Assembly: GCA_018970725.1 (NCBI GenBank)
Contig: JAGWVU010000017.1
Coordinates: 1-64,000, forward strand
Source of the DNA: Verrucomicrobiota bacterium
Lineage (GTDB): Bacteria; Verrucomicrobiota; Verrucomicrobiia; Verrucomicrobiales; DEV007
Direction of reading: 5' to 3'
DNA length: 64,000 nucleotides
The position numbers and the translations under genes were made by a program. Below, one piece after another: positions 5,324 to 51,800 of the stretch (its first letter is position 1; each line of letters starts with the position of its first letter). The notes beneath the pieces were generated by a model. That model saw nothing but the letters and a program-made list of their open reading frames with translations, did no database searches and had not been told where the DNA came from.

Positions 5324-8038
5324 ATGTCCTCTCCGAAACGAAACGTTCCACCGAAGCCCCCGGTTGCCGACCGTGGGGCTGATGATTTTTTGCAGGCCCG
5401 CCGGCGGCGCGGGATGGTCGCCTTGGCCTGCGCCGGCGCGGCCGTTCTCTATTTCTTCGCCCTGACCTCCTACACGCCGCACGACTTGCCCTCGTGGGTT
5501 CCGTTCAGCCGGGCCTTGGGACCGGACCATACTCCGGTCAATCTGGTCGGTCCGGTGGGCGCGTTGGCCGCCGGCTTAGGTTACCATCTCTTCGGCGCGG
5601 CCGTCTATTTCATCCCGGTCATGATGGTCTGGCTGGGGTTTGCCACGGTGGCCGGATTTGCGGTTTGGCGTGGGCGGACGATTCTGGCGGCGCTGGCGTT
5701 TCTGGTTTCGGCCGCGTGCCTCATCGATTTGCAGCCGGTCTTTCTGCGGGACTGGATTCTGAAATACAACCTGCCGCAAAGTCCGGGAGGGCTGGTGGGG
5801 CACGTCATCGGGCATGAATTGACCGGGAAGTATCTCGGCCCGCTCGGTTCCAGTGCGGTGATGCTGGTGCTCTATCTCTGCGGGTTGCTGGGTTTGACCG
5901 GTTTTCGTCCGATCCATTTTGGCCGGGTGTATGTTCCCGATCTCGAAGACTGCATCCAGCACCCGGTGGTGGACGGCTATCAGCGCAGACCGGCCTTCCC
6001 GGTGGCCTCCTACGCGATGCTCGAGACGGTTGCTCCGGTGGCCGCCGTTCCCGTGCGCCCGATCCGGGTGATCGAGCTTGAGAGTGATCCTGACGATGGC
6101 ATGGAACTCGGCTCCGACTGCATCCCCGAGTATGACAATGGAAAGCCCGGGCCGGTGGCGCAGCGGTTTCCGGCTCCGACGATCCGCCTGGAAGAGACGG
6201 ATCCGGGCACAGATGAGGCGGATTTGGCGTTGCCTGCCGCCAGCTGGGAAGGGGGGGCGGTCTATGGTGGCGGTTCGTCGGGCCGGCGGGTGGAGCCGCC
6301 GGATGCGGAACTCGACCCTTTGACAGAGGATCTCCGGGAGCCGGTGGCCCCCGTGGTGAGGCGGGCCCCGCAAATCGTGGATGCGGCGCGGTCCCGGCGC
6401 CCCCGGCGGGATCCCCGGCCCGTGGTGCCGGAGGATGCCAGTGTGCCGGGCTCGTTCTATCGTCAGGGCACTGCCTTTCAAGGCTATGCCCTGCCCTCCA
6501 TCGAATTGCTCGACTGCGAGGAGGAGAAGAACGTGGCCGAGGTGACCGACAAGGAATCCCTGTTGGAGACCCAGCGGGTCATCATCGAGACGTTGCGCAC
6601 GTTTGGCTTGATTGTGAGTCCCGGTGACATCACCCGGGGGCCGACGATCACGCGGTATGAAATTTATCCTCCCGTGGGCCAGAGCGTGAAAAAAATCGCG
6701 GCGCTGGAGGCGGATCTGGCGCGGGCCACGCGGGCGGAGCGGATCAACATTTTGGCGCCGATTCCCGGTCTGGACACCGTGGGCATTGAAATCGCCAACC
6801 ACAAGAAGGTGTTGGTGCCGTTGCGGGAGCTGTTGGAAGACCCAAAGTTCACCGACGGCAAGGCGCAAATCCCCCTGGCTCTGGGCAAGGATGTGTATGG
6901 GAACCCGCTGGTGGCCGATCTGGCGGCGATGCCGCACCTCTTGGTGGCCGGGGCCACGGGAAGTGGGAAGAGCGTCTGCATCAACTCGATCATCGTCAGC
7001 CTGTTGTGCCGTTTCACTCCCGAGGAGCTGCGCTTCATCATGATCGATCCCAAGGTGGTGGAGATGCAGATCTACAAGGATTTGCCGCACCTCGCCGTGC
7101 CGGTGGTGACGAATCCCAAGAAGGTCCTGCTGGCCCTGCGCTGGTGTATCAATGAGATGGAACGCCGGTATGAACTCTTTGCCGAGGCCGGGTGCCGCAA
7201 GCTCGAGGAATACAACAACCGCCACCAGCGGCAGATGCAGCGGCGCGCCCGGCGGGCGGGTGTGATGCAGCCCGAGCTGTTCCCGAGGGAGGAGCTGAAC
7301 GGTCGCTCCGCCGTCATCCATCCTCCGGTCCTTGATGCCAACGGAGAGGAGGCCGAGGACGATTGCCAGTCGAAACTTCCCTTCATCGTGGTCATCATCG
7401 ATGAGTTGGCCGACCTGATGCAGACCGCTCCGGCTGAGGTCGAAACCGCGATTGCCCGGCTCTGCCAGAAGGCCCGGGCGGCCGGCATCCACCTGATTGT
7501 CGCCACCCAGTCCCCACGGGTCGATGTGGTCACCGGGTTGATCAAGGCCAACATCCCGTCGCGCATCGCGTTCCAGGTCGCTTCGATGACCGACAGCCGG
7601 GTTATTCTTGATCGGGCCGGAGCGGAGCGTCTCGTGGGCAAGGGGGACATGTTGTATCAGCCGCCGGACACCCACGTGATGGTGCGTGCCCAGGGGGCGT
7701 TCGTCACGGATGACGAGGTCCAGGACATCGTGGAACATTGTGCTTCCCAGTCCGCGCCGATCTTTGATCGTTCCATTCAGGACAATCTGGATGCGGAGAC
7801 CGAGGAGGAGGCCGAGGCGGGAATGTCCGATGCCGACGAGGAGATCCTCGACAAGTGCATCGAGGTGATTCTGGCGGAGCGCAAGGCCTCCACCTCCTTC
7901 CTCCAGCGTCGGCTGCGGCTCGGTTACACCCGGGCGGCCCGTATGATGGACATTCTTCAGGAGCGCGGGATCGTCGGGCCGGGAGACGGGGCCAAACCGA
8001 GGGAAATTCTGATCGCTCAAGATCCGGACCTTGATTAA
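5324..8038 (+). CDS. ftsK: DNA translocase FtsK/SpoIIIE
   Basis: A 904-residue FtsK, counted from the ATG at 5324; an in-frame start 57 bp upstream adds a non-conserved leader. Four membrane segments (about residues 31-48, 76-106, 118-135 and 175-193) anchor it at the division septum. A long acidic/proline-rich linker follows. The motor begins near residue 410 and holds Walker A G-A-T-G-S-G-K-S at ~543-550 and Walker B V-V-I-I-D-E-L-A-D at ~687. The last ~65 residues form the winged-helix gamma domain (S-F-L-Q-R-R-L-R-L-G-Y-x-R-A-A-R), which reads KOPS sequences and activates XerCD at dif. All parts for terminus segregation are present. It is followed 21 bp later by the RodZ-like gene. Confidence 0.95.
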   Translation: MSSPKRNVPPKPPVADRGADDFLQARRRRGMVALACAGAAVLYFFALTSYTPHDLPSWVPFSRALGPDHTPVNLVGPVGALAAGLGYHLFGAAVYFIPVMMVWLGFATVAGFAVWRGRTILAALAFLVSAACLIDLQPVFLRDWILKYNLPQSPGGLVGHVIGHELTGKYLGPLGSSAVMLVLYLCGLLGLTGFRPIHFGRVYVPDLEDCIQHPVVDGYQRRPAFPVASYAMLETVAPVAAVPVRPIRVIELESDPDDGMELGSDCIPEYDNGKPGPVAQRFPAPTIRLEETDPGTDEADLALPAASWEGGAVYGGGSSGRRVEPPDAELDPLTEDLREPVAPVVRRAPQIVDAARSRRPRRDPRPVVPEDASVPGSFYRQGTAFQGYALPSIELLDCEEEKNVAEVTDKESLLETQRVIIETLRTFGLIVSPGDITRGPTITRYEIYPPVGQSVKKIAALEADLARATRAERINILAPIPGLDTVGIEIANHKKVLVPLRELLEDPKFTDGKAQIPLALGKDVYGNPLVADLAAMPHLLVAGATGSGKSVCINSIIVSLLCRFTPEELRFIMIDPKVVEMQIYKDLPHLAVPVVTNPKKVLLALRWCINEMERRYELFAEAGCRKLEEYNNRHQRQMQRRARRAGVMQPELFPREELNGRSAVIHPPVLDANGEEAEDDCQSKLPFIVVIIDELADLMQTAPAEVETAIARLCQKARAAGIHLIVATQSPRVDVVTGLIKANIPSRIAFQVASMTDSRVILDRAGAERLVGKGDMLYQPPDTHVMVRAQGAFVTDDEVQDIVEHCASQSAPIFDRSIQDNLDAETEEEAEAGMSDADEEILDKCIEVILAERKASTSFLQRRLRLGYTRAARMMDILQERGIVGPGDGAKPREILIAQDPDLD

Positions 8039-45272: not shown

Positions 45273-45311
45273 TTCCGGACCGGGATTCGTCCCGGATGGA
45301 AGCATTTGCAG

Positions 45312-45338
45312 ACGGGTCCTTCGGGGCCCGTTTTTTTT
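45312..45338 (+). terminator. Rho-independent terminator after the mre-rng-lipoprotein run
   Basis: Stem ACGGGTCC (45312-45319), tetraloop TTCG and stem GGGCCCGT (45324-45331) pair over 8 bp with one G-T, followed by eight T (45331-45338). A UUCG loop and a long T-run make it strong. It separates the lipoprotein from tRNA-Met. Confidence 0.9.
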
Positions 45339-45415: not shown

Positions 45416-45487
<72 letters not shown>

Positions 45488-45537
45488 CGTTTTTCATTTG
45501 TGGGACGAGGGTGCGTTCCTCGAAGAGTGGGAGATAA

Positions 45538-45565
45538 TTTGAATAGGTTTTGGCTTCTATTCAAA
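45538..45565. promoter_or_regulatory. 9-bp inverted repeat, likely operator of the LysR-like gene
   Basis: TTTGAATAG (45538-45546) and CTATTCAAA (45557-45565) are perfect inverted copies with a 10-base centre. The repeat ends 8 bp before a TTGACA box, thus at about -65 to -40 relative to the predicted start, where LysR-type regulators normally bind to control their own gene. A-runs on its right side also permit a weak terminator on the minus strand. Confidence 0.55.
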
Positions 45566-45573
45566 AAAGCTCG

Positions 45574-45602
45574 TTGACAATCCACCCTGGCACTTTCATC
45601 AT
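45574..45602 (+). promoter_or_regulatory. Probable promoter of the LysR-like / ClpX-like unit
   Basis: TTGACA (45574-45579, perfect -35) and CATCAT (45597-45602, 4 of 6 for -10) are 17 bp apart. The start would be near 45609, giving a leader of about 38 nt to the ATG at 45647. The upstream 9-bp dyad fits an activator or repressor site. Confidence 0.5.
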
Positions 45603-45646
45603 CAGGGAGCGTCTCTGCTTCCACGGGAGGCGGCGCGTTTCCTGCC

Positions 45647-46792
45647 ATGGCCACCTCCTCACTGGATCCCGAAACCATCGCCCGGATGGCGCTGCCGCTC
45701 TCGTTGCTTGCGAAGGCGGTGAACTTCGAGAACCAAACCGCGGCCGCCCGTGGTTTGGATGAGCCGCAGGCGAACATTTCGCGGGCGGTCCGGTTGCTCG
45801 AATCCGTCTTCGGAATCGATCTGATCGAGAAAAACGCGGGTTCAAAAAGCAGGTGGAGCCCGGCGGCCATCAGGCTGGCCGAGGTGTGGAATTCCTTCGC
45901 GGCGAAGGTTGTCGAGTTCCGGGACGACCGGCAAGTGGTGCGCGTGGCCACCCTGGAGGGAATGATCCCCTTGGCCATTCAATTCGTGAAGGCGATCATC
46001 GATTCCCCACAGGTGGCCGCCGTCGAGGTCGACATGCTTGAATTGTCCCGGTTGGAGGAGTTGTTTGGCCGAGGCGAGATCGACGTCGCCTTCAGCTGCC
46101 GGAAGACGAACGCGATGGATTCCTGTTGGTCCAAGGAGCTGGGATTCCAGCGGCTCGCCCCGCGGGGGGGAACGGCGGATGGGGTGCAAATCATGAGCAT
46201 CGGGAAATACCTGATGGAGACCCCCGAATCCATCCCGGGCAAGGTGGTGGTCTCCAATTCGCTCGGGTTTCGCGAGGCTTTCCGCAAGAAGTACGGAGGC
46301 TTTGACCATGACTATCCCTCGGCCCCCCGGAAACACCGGGACGAGGCGACCGACTTCACCTCGCCCGTTCTGGTCGTAACCTCGAAAGCGCTTTCCCAGA
46401 CGATTCGTATGCTGGTCGAAGAACTTGAGGTCGATTGGTCCGTGGTTTTGCCCGAGGTCGCTGAACCGTCTCCCGGGGAGGATCCGGAACTCGATGGCCG
46501 CGGTGCAGAAGAGTCCGGGGGGGCGGGCTTTGCCGGAAACCGGGAAGGCGTTCAGGGAACGCGGGCGCTGCGTGACCTCTTGCGGGAACTCTTGCCCAAG
46601 GTCCTGCCACAGCGTGCCGAGGATGCGGTGAGCGGGACGGAATTGATCCGCCGGCTCAAGGAGGATCTCGGTGGCGACTATACCGAGGCCAATCTGCGCT
46701 ATCATTTTTCTACCATGGCAAAGGCTGGTTCGACGATCGCCAAGGTGAAGCACGGTCAGGGCTATTACCTGAGCGCAGGCCTGAAGCGGTGA
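45647..46792 (+). CDS. LysR-like regulator with an extra C-terminal winged-helix domain
   Basis: A 381-residue protein. Residues ~15-80 match the LysR HTH: L-S-L-L-A-K-A-V-N-F-E-N-Q-T-A-A-A-R, S-R-A-V-R-L-L-E and W-S-P-A-A-I-R-L-A. Residues ~98-275 have a substrate-binding-like domain (V-V-R-V-A-T-L-E-G). LysR proteins usually stop near 300 residues. Here an acidic/Gly linker (~275-305) leads to a further ~75 residues with T-E-L-I-R-R-L-K, L-R-Y-H-F-S-T-M and G-Q-G-Y-Y-L, a winged-helix pattern. Two DNA-binding-like domains in one LysR protein are unusual. The following ClpX-like gene begins 114 bp later, with a weak hairpin between. It probably regulates that gene and itself. Confidence 0.75.
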   Translation: MATSSLDPETIARMALPLSLLAKAVNFENQTAAARGLDEPQANISRAVRLLESVFGIDLIEKNAGSKSRWSPAAIRLAEVWNSFAAKVVEFRDDRQVVRVATLEGMIPLAIQFVKAIIDSPQVAAVEVDMLELSRLEELFGRGEIDVAFSCRKTNAMDSCWSKELGFQRLAPRGGTADGVQIMSIGKYLMETPESIPGKVVVSNSLGFREAFRKKYGGFDHDYPSAPRKHRDEATDFTSPVLVVTSKALSQTIRMLVEELEVDWSVVLPEVAEPSPGEDPELDGRGAEESGGAGFAGNREGVQGTRALRDLLRELLPKVLPQRAEDAVSGTELIRRLKEDLGGDYTEANLRYHFSTMAKAGSTIAKVKHGQGYYLSAGLKR

Positions 46793-46815
46793 AGCCCCTT
46801 GCCGGGCGTCCGTGA

Positions 46816-46838
46816 CTCCCCGAGCGGGGGGTTGTTGT
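46816..46838 (+). terminator. Weak hairpin between the LysR-like and ClpX-like genes
   Basis: CTCCCC (46816-46821), loop GAGC and GGGGGG (46826-46831) pair over 6 bp with one T-G, followed by TTGTTGT. It has a short broken T-run, so it may only slow or attenuate transcription into the downstream gene. It is not clear whether the ClpX-like gene also has its own promoter. Confidence 0.4.
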
Positions 46839-46906
46839 AAGACTAACCAAAACAACAAATACATCCGGCGGAGAAGTCCGGAGTCCAACCTGGAAAGTTC
46901 CATCTC

Positions 46907-48637
46907 ATGAAATCTGACATGTATCCTGACGGTCCTGACGTTGATTCTACGGGGCTCAGTGGGGCATTTTCTTCTCCCCTCCGCCTCCTCCCGGCCCCGG
47001 AGGAGATGGAGGCCGAGCTCGACCTCTACATTGTGGGTCAAAAGGTTGCCAAGAGAGCGGTTTGCCGGGCGGTTTATGATCACTATGTATCGCTATCCTT
47101 GCGCGAGGTGGAGCCGAATCCTGACGGTCACCGTGGGAGTCATCTGCTGTTGTTGGGACCGACCGGTTGTGGCAAATCCTACATGGTGAAGATCCTTGCA
47201 CGGTTCCTTGGGGTGCCGGTCGGTTTTTCTTCGGCGAGCGGACTCGTCGAGGCCGGTTACAAGGGGACCTCGGTGGAAAGCGTGGTGCGGAACCTCATGG
47301 ATGCAGCTGGTGGAAATCCCCGGGTCGCGGAACGGGGGATCATTTTCATCGATGAGATCGATAAAATTCGTCGCGCGGTTGATCTCGTCCGGGACGTCAG
47401 CGGGGAAGGGGTGCAGCAGGGTTTGCTGACGCTGATGGACGGCCGGATCAGCAAGGGGGCGGAGGGATACGAACATGCCCCGGTGGATACGAGCCGGGTG
47501 CTGTTTGTTTGTGCGGGGGCCTTTGTCAGGCTGCCCGAACTGGTGAACAAGCGGATCGGCCGGGATGATCAGCGGAAGGTCGGTTTCCTTGAGCAGGTGC
47601 GGTCCGAGGCCGGGGTGAGCGAGGAGCGCCCGATCTTTGCCTCGTTGTGTCAGGCCACAACCGAGGACTTCGACGAGTTCGGCATGATCCCGGAGTTCAT
47701 GGGCCGGTTCGGCTCCCTCGCGGTGCTCCATGAACTGGGGGTGGAAGAATATCGTCGGATTCTTTCGGACAAGACGCAGAATGGTCCCTGGCAGCGGCAG
47801 CAGGAGATCGCCCGGGTTCATGGCATCCGGCTGGAAATCAGTGATGCTGCGGTGGGGAAACTGGCGGAGCGGACTGCCCGGTTGGGGGCTGGGGCGCGCG
47901 GTTTGCAACGGATTCTTCATGAGAGTGTCAACCGGATGGACCAAAGCTGGCCGCGGCTGGCGGATCAGGGCGTCACCCGGGTGGTCATCAATGAAGACTG
48001 CGTCGCGGGAACCGCCCCGCCCCGGTTGGTGACGAGCAAAAAACGCAGGCCGAAACGCAAGGACATTGAGCTGCGGGCGATTGCCTCCAGTTGGCTGGCT
48101 CCGGCATCGGCGCAGGAACCATCCGGAACCCAACCGATCCACTCAGGTGGCAACCCGCTGGTCAGTGTCTACATCCAGCAGGCGTTGGAGAAGGTGGGAT
48201 GGAAGGACGCCCGTGATGTGGCCCGGCGTTGGTGGGAGGCGTTCATGAAGGAGAACGAGCACAAGCCAGCCCTGATGCTTTTCCTCTTGGAAAAGCTCAT
48301 CATCCGGCAGGCCACGTTGGAGCAGTATTACGATGCCTACGTTTACAGTTTCACCGAGGATATTCAGGCCGTTCTGCATTTCCTCGATTACAGACTGGCC
48401 AAGCAGCAGTTCGAGGATCGAAAGCGCGCCGCCGCCGCGGAAAAAAACAAGCCCGTGGCGGAGCCGGAGCCGGACGGCGACGCGGTTTCTTCAAGCGGGG
48501 GGAAGGAACCGGAGGACGTTTGTGCCGAGCCGTTTCTGGAGGCAGCGATTGATCTTTTCAATGGGTTTTGGATCGATTCGGAAGGTGGTTCTCCGGACGA
48601 ATCCCCTGAGGATCCGGATGGAGACATCCCGTTTTGA
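46907..48637 (+). CDS. Divergent ClpX-like AAA+ protein without Zn domain, with long C-terminal extension
   Basis: A 576-residue AAA+ unfoldase-like protein. Y-I-V-G-Q-K-V-A-K-R (41-50) opens the ClpX core. Walker A G-P-T-G-C-G-K-S is at 84-91, Walker B I-I-F-I-D-E-I-D at 145-152, G-V-Q-Q-G-L-L-T-L at 168-176, F-G-M-I-P-E-F-M-G-R-F with the Arg finger at 258-268, and sensor II G-A-R-G-L at 329-333. The N-terminal Cys4 zinc domain is absent. The pore loop is G-Y-K-G (117-120) instead of G-Y-V-G, and the RKH loop is shortened without R-K-H. A V-G-F at 225-227 stands where ClpX has the ClpP-binding I-G-F. Residues ~370-576 are an unknown extension. It may be a dedicated unfoldase under the LysR-like protein. 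Confidence 0.85.
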   Translation: MKSDMYPDGPDVDSTGLSGAFSSPLRLLPAPEEMEAELDLYIVGQKVAKRAVCRAVYDHYVSLSLREVEPNPDGHRGSHLLLLGPTGCGKSYMVKILARFLGVPVGFSSASGLVEAGYKGTSVESVVRNLMDAAGGNPRVAERGIIFIDEIDKIRRAVDLVRDVSGEGVQQGLLTLMDGRISKGAEGYEHAPVDTSRVLFVCAGAFVRLPELVNKRIGRDDQRKVGFLEQVRSEAGVSEERPIFASLCQATTEDFDEFGMIPEFMGRFGSLAVLHELGVEEYRRILSDKTQNGPWQRQQEIARVHGIRLEISDAAVGKLAERTARLGAGARGLQRILHESVNRMDQSWPRLADQGVTRVVINEDCVAGTAPPRLVTSKKRRPKRKDIELRAIASSWLAPASAQEPSGTQPIHSGGNPLVSVYIQQALEKVGWKDARDVARRWWEAFMKENEHKPALMLFLLEKLIIRQATLEQYYDAYVYSFTEDIQAVLHFLDYRLAKQQFEDRKRAAAAEKNKPVAEPEPDGDAVSSSGGKEPEDVCAEPFLEAAIDLFNGFWIDSEGGSPDESPEDPDGDIPF

Positions 48638-48805: not shown

Positions 48806-51800
48806 TTGTTTTCGATTCGCCATTCCGCAATCCTCCTTGTTGTCTTGACCCTCGGGACCGTGCCTGTGGGGGCGTCTCCCTCTTGGGAAATGGTCGGTCC
48901 GACCCTGGAGCGTTATTGCCATGAGTGCCATGGCGGGGCCAAGACCAAGGGCGGCGTGAATTTGAAGGCGTTGTCCGCGGATCCGCAGGTGGCGGCCGAG
49001 TCCGGGCTCTGGGAGAAGGTCTTTGATACCGTGGAGAGCGGGGAGATGCCGCCCCCCAAGGCCAAAGCTCTGCCGGCCCCGGAAAGTAGAGCGCTTCTCG
49101 CTTGGGTCACCGCCGCGCTGGACGCCATCGGCGAACCCGGTGATCCTGGGCAAGTCACGCTGCGGCGGCTGACGCATGCGGAATATGATTTCACGATCCG
49201 GGATCTCACGGGGCACGCCTACGGGTTCTCCAGCGAATTCCAGTCGGACGGCGGAGGCGGCGAGGGGTTCTCGAACACGGGGGACGTGCTCTTTCTCAGC
49301 CCCCGGCAACTCGACCAGTATTTCGGAGCGGCGCGGCAGATCGCGGATCGTGCCACCATTCTTCCCGGCAGCGGCATCCGCTTTCATCCGCAGCGGATTG
49401 GGCTACGCGGTCCGGAGCAGTGGAAGGCGCAGGCGCAGCAGGCGCTTTACGTGTGGTATCAACAGAAGGCGGCGCCGCATCTGCCCAAGGATTTTGAAGA
49501 CAAGCGGGAGGCGGATTACATGCTGGCCTGCTGGAAGCATCACCATGGGCAGCGGCCCCTCGCGGAGCTGGCCCGGGAGAGCGGGTTGCGTCTTCCCTTC
49601 CTGCAAAACTGGTGGAACCTGCTGAACGGCGTGGAACCTCCCTCCCGCTTTCTCGACCTGACCCGGGTCGCTTGGCGGGAGTTGCCGGGGCCGGACCCGG
49701 CCGCGCCCGGGAAACCGCCGGCCGCGGTGGTGGAAAAGATCAAAGCCATCCAGCAAGATCTTCTGTCTTGGAACGACCCGAAACGGCCGGGATGGGGAGT
49801 GCAGCGGCGTCAGCAGGATTCCGACGGCATCCGACCCTACCCGATGCAACTTGAGGTCAAGGGGCAGAAGCAGGTGCGCCTCTGCATCGGGGACACGGGC
49901 GATGGTCCGGCCGGGGACATTGCCCTCATCACCGCGATCGAGGTCCGGGCGGGAAAAGAGGTGCTCAACTACTTCGCCTGGTTGGACCGCCAGATCGCGC
50001 AGGATCGGAAGAGCCTGTCGGCTGCTCCCGCGCCGCCTGACGCGGACCAGACGAGGAAGCGCTTGGCGCAGTTGGAACAGGTGAGGGGAGCGTTCGGGAA
50101 ACATCCGCACGCCGGGCGGACCCTTGAGCCGCACGTGCTTGCGCTGGCGGCACCGCAGGTTTTCACCCTGCCTTTGCCGGACAACGCCTGGCGGGTCCGG
50201 GCGGATACCCGGTTGGATCTGCAGAATCCGGAAGCGGATAAGGCGACGATCCAATGGACCCTGACCACCGGGGCCCCGCCGGAGGTGGGCAAGATCCTGC
50301 CCGGAGTCCTCACCGTGTGGAAAATCCAGACGGAGACGGCCCGCCGGACAATGGCGGATTTCAATGTTATGAGGGCGGCGTTCCCGGACGCGCATGAGCG
50401 GCTCTTGGAACAGGTGGCGGGCAACCTGTATCGCAACACGCCGAACCACACGGTCTATTACTTCAGCGATGCCCAGTTAGCGGAGATGCTTTCCGAGCGG
50501 GAGCGCGAGGAGTTGAAGGCGATGAAGAAGGACTGGATGTTCACCGCTCCGGGGCGGATGGACGACAAGCAGAAAAAGGCTTGGGATGAAGCTGTCCGCC
50601 CCCAGCTCGGGCTGTTCGCCGCCCGCGCCTGGCGCCGGCCGCTCGGCAGAGAGGAAGCCGCCGATCTCGAGGTGCTCTACCAGCGGGGAGTCGCTGCCGG
50701 GATGGATCGGGAATCCGCCGCCCGCGAGGTCCTCGTCCGGGTGTTGGTCTCTCCAAACTTTCTCTACAAACCGGAGCCGCGGCCTGCCGAAACCGTGGCC
50801 GCGCCGGGGATCGACGGACCTCTCTCCGCTTGGGAACTCGCCTCCCGGCTCAGTTATTTCCTCTGGTCGTCGATGCCTGACCGCGAGCTGCGCGAGGCGG
50901 CGTCGGGGGGGAGTCTGACCAAGCCGGAGGTGCTGGCGGCGCAGGCGCGGCGCATGCTTCGTGACCAGCGGGTGGAGGCGTTGGCCCAGGAATTCGCCGG
51001 CCAGTGGCTCGGGTTCAAGGGGTTCGAGGGGGCGGACTCGGTGGATCAACGGAAATTCCCCGAGTTCACCGCCGGGTTGCGAGCCGATTTTGCCCGTGAG
51101 CCGATGATTTTCTTTTCCAAGCTGTTCCGTGAGGATCGGCCGGTGGGGGATATCACGGGCGGAGCCTACACCTTTCTGAACGAGCGCCTGGCCCACCACT
51201 ACGGGGTTCCCGGGGTCACGGGACCGGAATTCCGCGAGGTCAACGTCGCGGACCGCCACCGTGGCGGCGTGCTTGGGATGGGCTGCATCCTGACGAAGAC
51301 CTCACGACCGAATCGGACCAGCCCGGTGTTGCGCGGGGATTACCTGTATCACGTGATCCTCGGTCAGTCCTCGCCTCCCCCGCCGCCGAACGTGCCCAAA
51401 CTCCCGGAGAACGCGGTGAAACCGGCGTCTCTCCGCGAGGCCTTGGAAGCGCATCGGGCGGACCAAGCCTGTTCCGTGTGTCACGACCGGATCGACCCGC
51501 TGGGCTTCGCGTTGGAGTCGTTCGATCCGATCGGCCGTTTCCGGGCCATGGACGAGGCCGGAGACAAAATCGACGACACCGGCAGGTTGCGGGACGGGAC
51601 CGAGCTGGCGGGGATTGACGGGTTGCGCCAGTATCTTCAGGAGCACCAGAGCGAGGTGCGGGAACAATTCTGCCGGAAGTTGCTCGGATATGCGTTGGGG
51701 CGGAGGGTGTTGACCACGGACAAGGCGCTTCTCGCCGAGATGCAGAGCGCGCTCGACGCCCAAGGAGGCAAGGTTTCCGCCGCCGTCGTGACGGTGGTGC

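Follow-up and report, generated by a model that had tools for sequence, protein, structure and literature searches.

A ClpX-like unfoldase with a C-terminal helical adaptor domain and an SSB-like tail, encoded beside a LysR-type regulator in a Verrucomicrobiota genome

ClpX docks on ClpP through its IGF loop, and its RKH loop serves the recognition of the ssrA tag. A link between ClpX and the single-stranded DNA-binding protein SSB has also been described: SSB ends in the C-terminal tip DFDDDIPF (PMC10164576), and in mycobacteria the last 10 SSB residues stimulate ClpX, for which the terminal Phe is required (PMC7847540). The FGS and AP-GTPase (Roc) conflict systems and their effector-associated domains were described by Kaur et al. 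(2020, 2021; PMC7159879, PMC8195603), who mention that a Death-like domain occurs in fusion with a Clp-like AAA+. Here we looked at a gene pair in a window of 64,000 nucleotides from a Verrucomicrobiota bacterium (assembly GCA_018970725.1, contig JAGWVU010000017.1, positions 1 to 64,000), in which a LysR-type regulator gene (45647-46792, + strand) is followed by a gene for a ClpX-like AAA+ unfoldase (46907-48637, + strand). Our preferred reading, on which we are evenly divided, is that the second protein acts as an adaptor-guided, ClpP-docking accessory unfoldase of a predicted bacterial conflict network, which in this genome has been locally wired to the regulator.

The ClpX paralogue and its helical adaptor domain

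The ClpX-like gene is an intact frame that encodes 576 amino acids. The AAA+ region begins near residue 30, and the protein has no Pfam match for the N-terminal C4 zinc-binding domain. It scores 268.7 bits against NF003745 (equivalog cut-off 359) and 240.4 bits against TIGR00382 (cut-off 370.75), which bears out a preliminary description of this DNA, made from the sequence alone, as far as it called the protein a divergent ClpX paralogue that lacks the zinc domain. That description had left room for this being the only clpX of the organism, next to clpP. It is not: the gene does not adjoin clpP, and the housekeeping clpX lies elsewhere, in a canonical tig-clpP-clpX cluster on contig C14, which holds the only full clpP of the genome. 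Together with its relatives the protein forms a separate clade with a long stem and a support of 100/100, apart from canonical ClpX; its closest relative, the sister protein at locus L138 of a Prosthecobacter metagenome-assembled genome (MAG), is 59% identical. Judging from these comparisons, the window protein is a divergent accessory paralogue and not the housekeeping ClpX. A further ClpX-like paralogue of ~550 amino acids, also without the zinc domain, is encoded on contig C88 (L003:1117-2754, - strand) and is found in most relatives; it is distinct from canonical ClpX and from the family described here.

Motif comparison located the Walker A motif GPTGCGKS (47156-47179, + strand), the pore-1 loop GYKG (47255-47266, + strand) and, as the counterpart of the ClpP-docking IGF loop, the VGF at residues 225-227 (47579-47587, + strand), a loop that reads xGF in all members compared. 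Every family member compared retains Walker A and B, both pore loops, sensor 2 and the xGF loop, and the RKH loop segment is absent from all of them. Based on these motifs, the protein would form a ClpX-type ring that docks on the housekeeping ClpP by way of the xGF loop. Because the zinc domain and the RKH loop have been lost, no ssrA-type recognition is proposed, and on the basis of known ClpX biochemistry the ring is predicted to dock on ClpP yet no longer to read ssrA-type tags.

This raises the question of how such an unfoldase may be directed. Behind a linker of ~57 residues, the ~100 C-terminal residues form an all-helical adaptor domain, with its core at residues 428-498 (48188-48400, + strand; residues 406-508 were used for modelling and searches), which matches no Pfam model. 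The AlphaFold model of the domain is a confident five-helix fold (pLDDT 91). A profile search was positive in 11 of the 387 genomes of the order, in the window genome alone among a phylum-wide sample of 388 genomes, and at 44 places in a species-level collection, where the record labels are Verrucomicrobia, Planctomycetes, the acidobacterial Sulfopaludibacter, Deltaproteobacteria and Bdellovibrionales. The distribution of the domain is patchy. Apart from ClpX-like proteins, those fused to it are VirD4-like ATPases (~28 proteins, the single one scanned being T4SS-DNA_transf), a ParA-like ATPase with the KGGVGR motif, a DUF4062 P-loop NTPase and a GNAT protein, so that, as is the case for effector-associated domains, one small non-catalytic adaptor is common to NTPases and effectors. 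We suggest that the domain directs the unfoldase in the way in which effector-associated domains would act in predicted conflict systems.

The mean column identity in an alignment of 49 copies of the adaptor is 71%. With the window protein and one outlier left out, the mean identity is 68% for the adaptor versus 59% for the AAA+ body; in the window protein the adaptor is mostly less conserved than its AAA+ body. Fourfold-degenerate sites are largely randomised between the copies and the conservation is therefore the result of selection on the protein and not of recent DNA transfer; a recent spread at the DNA level was rejected on the same ground. An origin of the adaptor in phages or plasmids was also rejected, since collections of both gave no match and only one IMG/VR contig carries it. 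Two further observations concern its carriers. The DUF4062 protein (L110:5732-10360, + strand), from a Phycisphaerae MAG, has 1542 amino acids with a STAND-like P-loop region and two tandem C-terminal adaptor copies. In Deltaproteobacteria/Bdellovibrionota MAGs, the VirD4-like adaptor ATPases lie near flagellin-like and glycosyltransferase-like genes (L074, L076, L085, L090, L097, L100, L101, L107, L114 and others), and no conjugation genes were recognised around them.

Conflict-type neighbourhoods and the acidic tail

About 8 of the 18 ClpX-type loci lie amid conflict-type genes (FGE-sulfatase, LRR-Roc-COR, TIR or KGGVGR). Six of them hold LRR-Roc-COR GTPases, FGE-sulfatase-fold proteins and/or a large Rossmann-like and membrane-like protein, and one of the six also has a TIR gene; the Rossmann-like and membrane-like parts of the large protein, and TIR-like C-termini on some of the Roc-COR GTPases, were recognised by eye. 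At the seventh locus, from IMG/VR, a large protein that is common to two of these six clusters is encoded downstream, and at the eighth an adjoining gene, in convergent orientation to the ClpX-like one, encodes a KGGVGR ATPase that bears the same adaptor. At a locus other than the eighth, an adaptor-bearing GNAT lies within the cluster of the ClpX-like gene. More than one adaptor-bearing protein is found in two relatives (G302, with the GNAT, and L096, with the KGGVGR ATPase) and one in the window genome. The large proteins that recur beside ClpX-like genes have 720-780 amino acids (L136:5551-7761, L135:17128-19470 and L094:1090-3252), with a Rossmann-like stretch of the GGTxETVREA type and membrane-like segments; those scanned had no family match, and they are possibly SLOG plus membrane modules.

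Downstream of the adaptor, the window protein has an acidic tail (48575-48634, + strand) that ends in DGDIPF and, by sequence comparison, resembles the C-terminal tip of SSB. The acidic tails of the window protein and of its L138 sister have diverged, yet both end in DIPF, and a VirD4-like adaptor protein ends in DDDDMLPF. Ends of this type, defined as an acidic residue, at most one other residue, an aliphatic residue, Met or Phe, and then PF, occur in 3 of 1570 distinct open reading frames of at least 120 amino acids in all DNA retrieved, and all three are adaptor proteins; many of these frames are not genes, so that this figure is an approximate background. We see three possible roles for the tail: it may dock on the partners of SSB, it may stimulate the ring, or it may be a degron. 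Because of its acidic lead-in we favour docking. The DIPF tail of this sub-branch would then bring the unfoldase to the partners of SSB, which are replication and repair proteins, or stimulate the ring. A broader version is that ClpX-type unfoldases and DNA-pump ATPases of an immune network carry mimics of the SSB tip and, on activation, dock on the fork proteins that ride on SSB and unfold or degrade them, which would halt the replication of the phage (or of the host); this we regard as improbable.

Another explanation of the DIPF end is that it is a degron by which the housekeeping ClpXP removes the paralogue, and not a docking tip. In Streptococcus mutans the three residues LPF at the C-terminus of SsbA suffice for degradation by ClpXP; the same paper describes this recognition as dependent on the strain and as not observed in other bacteria (PMC5143411). 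Moreover, the acidic lead-in fits SSB better than a bare degron, and we hold the degron to be very unlikely.

Several points weigh against the preferred reading. Conflict genes such as Roc, FGS or TIR are absent around the window gene from 44.0 to 63.9 kb (L141), and a second copy of the adaptor is lacking in the window genome, so that no partner is visible here for recruitment through a like domain. These phyla commonly carry FGE-sulfatase genes, and the neighbourhood alone is therefore weak evidence. The window adaptor is among the most diverged, with mostly 30-40% identity to the other copies, and fold searches found no known adaptor fold and no convincing relative in the PDB. The SSB-like tail is limited to the two sister ClpX-like proteins and one VirD4-like protein, and the comparison was with the published tip.

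The sister locus L138 has no conflict-type neighbours either, and the absence of conflict genes at both loci would be expected if the protein were a duplicated ClpX that has specialised in DNA maintenance, in which the DIPF tail is the key feature and the unfoldase remodels replication or repair complexes without a part in conflict. ClpX remodels Mu transpososomes, which provides an analogue for such a function. The SSB-like tip and the mycobacterial link between the SSB tail and ClpX (PMC7847540) speak for it as well. However, the clade is patchy (11 of the 387 genomes) and often lies within conflict-type clusters, and the adaptor is common to the proteins of such clusters. We therefore consider specialisation in DNA maintenance to be fairly unlikely. 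Returning to the conflict network, the window gene is, as judged from its relatives, an orphan of it. PADLOC gave no specific defence-system match for either protein of the gene pair, and a named defence system was rejected as the identity of either one.

The LysR-type regulator and the history of the locus

The regulator is a single intact frame of 381 amino acids. Its LysR helix-turn-helix (HTH), at residues 19-65 (45701-45841, + strand), scores 28.3 bits against PF00126 (HTH_1; cut-off 26.6), and the Pfam scan gave no match to LysR_substrate (PF03466). A second, C-terminal winged helix, which had also been described beforehand, lies at residues 305-376 (46559-46774, + strand), where HTH_20 matches below its cut-off. 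This domain shares 47-57% identity with the N-terminal domain of an order-wide protein of ~340 amino acids, unrelated in its other parts, with the conserved pattern AIKGTELI...YSDATLRYHFS...IAKV..GQGY, matched in 54 of the 57 genomes searched, usually once in each. In a sample of the phylum the winged-helix domain of this type is confined to the order. Among the 387 genomes of the order, the search with the LysR half gave four weak matches (E 3e-4 to 7e-4) and no specific homologue. With a LysR half without specific homologue in the order and a winged helix related to an order-specific protein, the regulator is, within the genomes searched, a chimera private to this lineage. Its AlphaFold model, from a single sequence, reached a pLDDT of 43 and was not used. 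The source genome's own copy of the ~340 amino acid protein is on contig C20 (L064:5645-6703, - strand; copies of relatives, L036-L063); it consists of the N-terminal winged helix, in which the first 70 residues are related to the C-terminal domain of the regulator, and a C-terminal domain of its own, and it has no Pfam or NCBIfam match.

Upstream of the pair, the mre-rng region ends with an intrinsic terminator between rng and the tRNA (45310-45333, + strand; 10-pair stem, T5), which is followed by a tRNA-Met (CAT; 45416-45488, + strand) and a dyad, TTTGAATAG-N10-CTATTCAAA (45538-45565), all present as had been reported. The arms of the dyad are perfect over 9 bp, and a perfect inverted repeat at least as long was found in 0.9% of 1000 dinucleotide shuffles of 45489-45646. 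For the promoter that had been proposed, the site TTGACA-17-CATCAT exists (45574-45602, + strand) and has 10 of 12 consensus matches, but 1.0 such site is expected by chance across the scanned 3.95 kb. The two genes lie on the same strand, 114 nucleotides apart. A terminator or attenuator between them was rejected because the stem in this gap is weak (z = -1.4), and across such a gap co-transcription is possible. We suggest that this private regulator probably controls itself through the dyad, as a candidate autoregulatory operator, and perhaps also controls the ClpX-like gene.

The adjacency, the dyad and the promoter-like site before the regulator could also suggest a dedicated and conserved system of regulator and unfoldase, where the ClpX would either turn over the LysR-type protein or be under its control, as the preliminary description had supposed. 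In addition, the sister locus has a broken LysR_substrate piece ~1 kb downstream of its ClpX-like gene. This fragment (L138:7758-8030, - strand), which lies between the ClpX-like gene and a tRNA-Leu (7395-7477) with a transposase on the other side, has no similarity to the window regulator. Nor was a homologue of the regulator found near any other family member or adaptor-domain locus (tblastn), or, as a specific match, in the order; homologues of the two genes are apart. The pairing is real in this genome and is not conserved, so that the reading as a conserved system is largely refuted, and a dedicated system of this kind is unlikely. The preliminary description was correct in its account of the sequence but overlooked both the adaptor domain at the C-terminus and the tail with its likeness to SSB.

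The synteny with two congeners ends exactly at the 3' end of the tRNA-Met (45488-45491), and homology resumes at ~48883-48914, at a different genomic place in each of them. The whole 3.4-kb segment with the regulator and the ClpX-like gene is absent from both congeners and has no counterpart at either place. A tRNA-anchored genomic island was rejected, despite the break at the tRNA-Met, since neither the window nor the matching position on contig C53 showed a duplicated tRNA end or an attachment-site repeat, and our claim is limited to a private segment at a rearrangement breakpoint. The 3' end of the tRNA-Met (window position 45488; L157 and L158) is a variable junction, with three different following sequences in three congeners; in one of them (G002), ~1.8 kb lie between this end and the next conserved gene.

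One may ask whether such a segment is simply a recently acquired and decaying one, with a gene that has no function in this genome. Its absence from both congeners, its position at the synteny break, the diverged adaptor and the lack of a partner copy in the genome would fit this option. Against it, both frames are intact, all catalytic and docking motifs are retained, the GC content of the two-gene segment is near that of its flanks, and the DIPF end is retained in the sister protein; decay is thus a quite improbable explanation.

Comparison with described systems

In the ClpX-derived clade defined here, an exchangeable adaptor domain appears to have replaced ssrA-type recognition in the choice of substrates. 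This adaptor marks VirD4-like, ParA-like and DUF4062 NTPases and an acetyltransferase in Verrucomicrobiota, Planctomycetota, Acidobacteria and Deltaproteobacteria/Bdellovibrionota MAGs, and it may serve as a sequence handle for collecting a part of the predicted conflict network that has not been described so far. The DIPF tail offers a simple and directly testable hypothesis on the destination of the unfoldase.

In comparison with LysR-type regulators (CysB-like HTH), the window regulator has the N-terminal HTH_1 above the cut-off, but it has no LysR_substrate match and carries an extra C-terminal winged helix in common with an order-specific protein. With the FGS and AP-GTPase systems (PMC7159879, PMC8195603) the relatives' loci share FGE-sulfatase, Roc-COR and TIR genes and one small helical domain that is fused to many NTPases and effectors; the differences are that the adaptor has no Pfam match and is C-terminal, and that the window copy has neither such neighbours nor a second genomic copy. 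A Death-like fold is possible for the adaptor, whose five-helix model has no confident match in the PDB. Like the SSB C-terminal tip (DFDDDIPF), the window tail is acidic and ends in D-I-P-F with a terminal Phe, whereas it stands on an AAA+ unfoldase without an OB fold. With ClpX (TIGR00382/NF003745) the window protein has in common the AAA+ core throughout, the pore-1 and pore-2 loops, sensor 2 and the xGF ClpP-docking loop; it differs in lacking the zinc domain and the RKH loop, in its sub-equivalog score, its own clade and its location away from clpP, and in carrying both an additional adaptor domain and an SSB-like tail.

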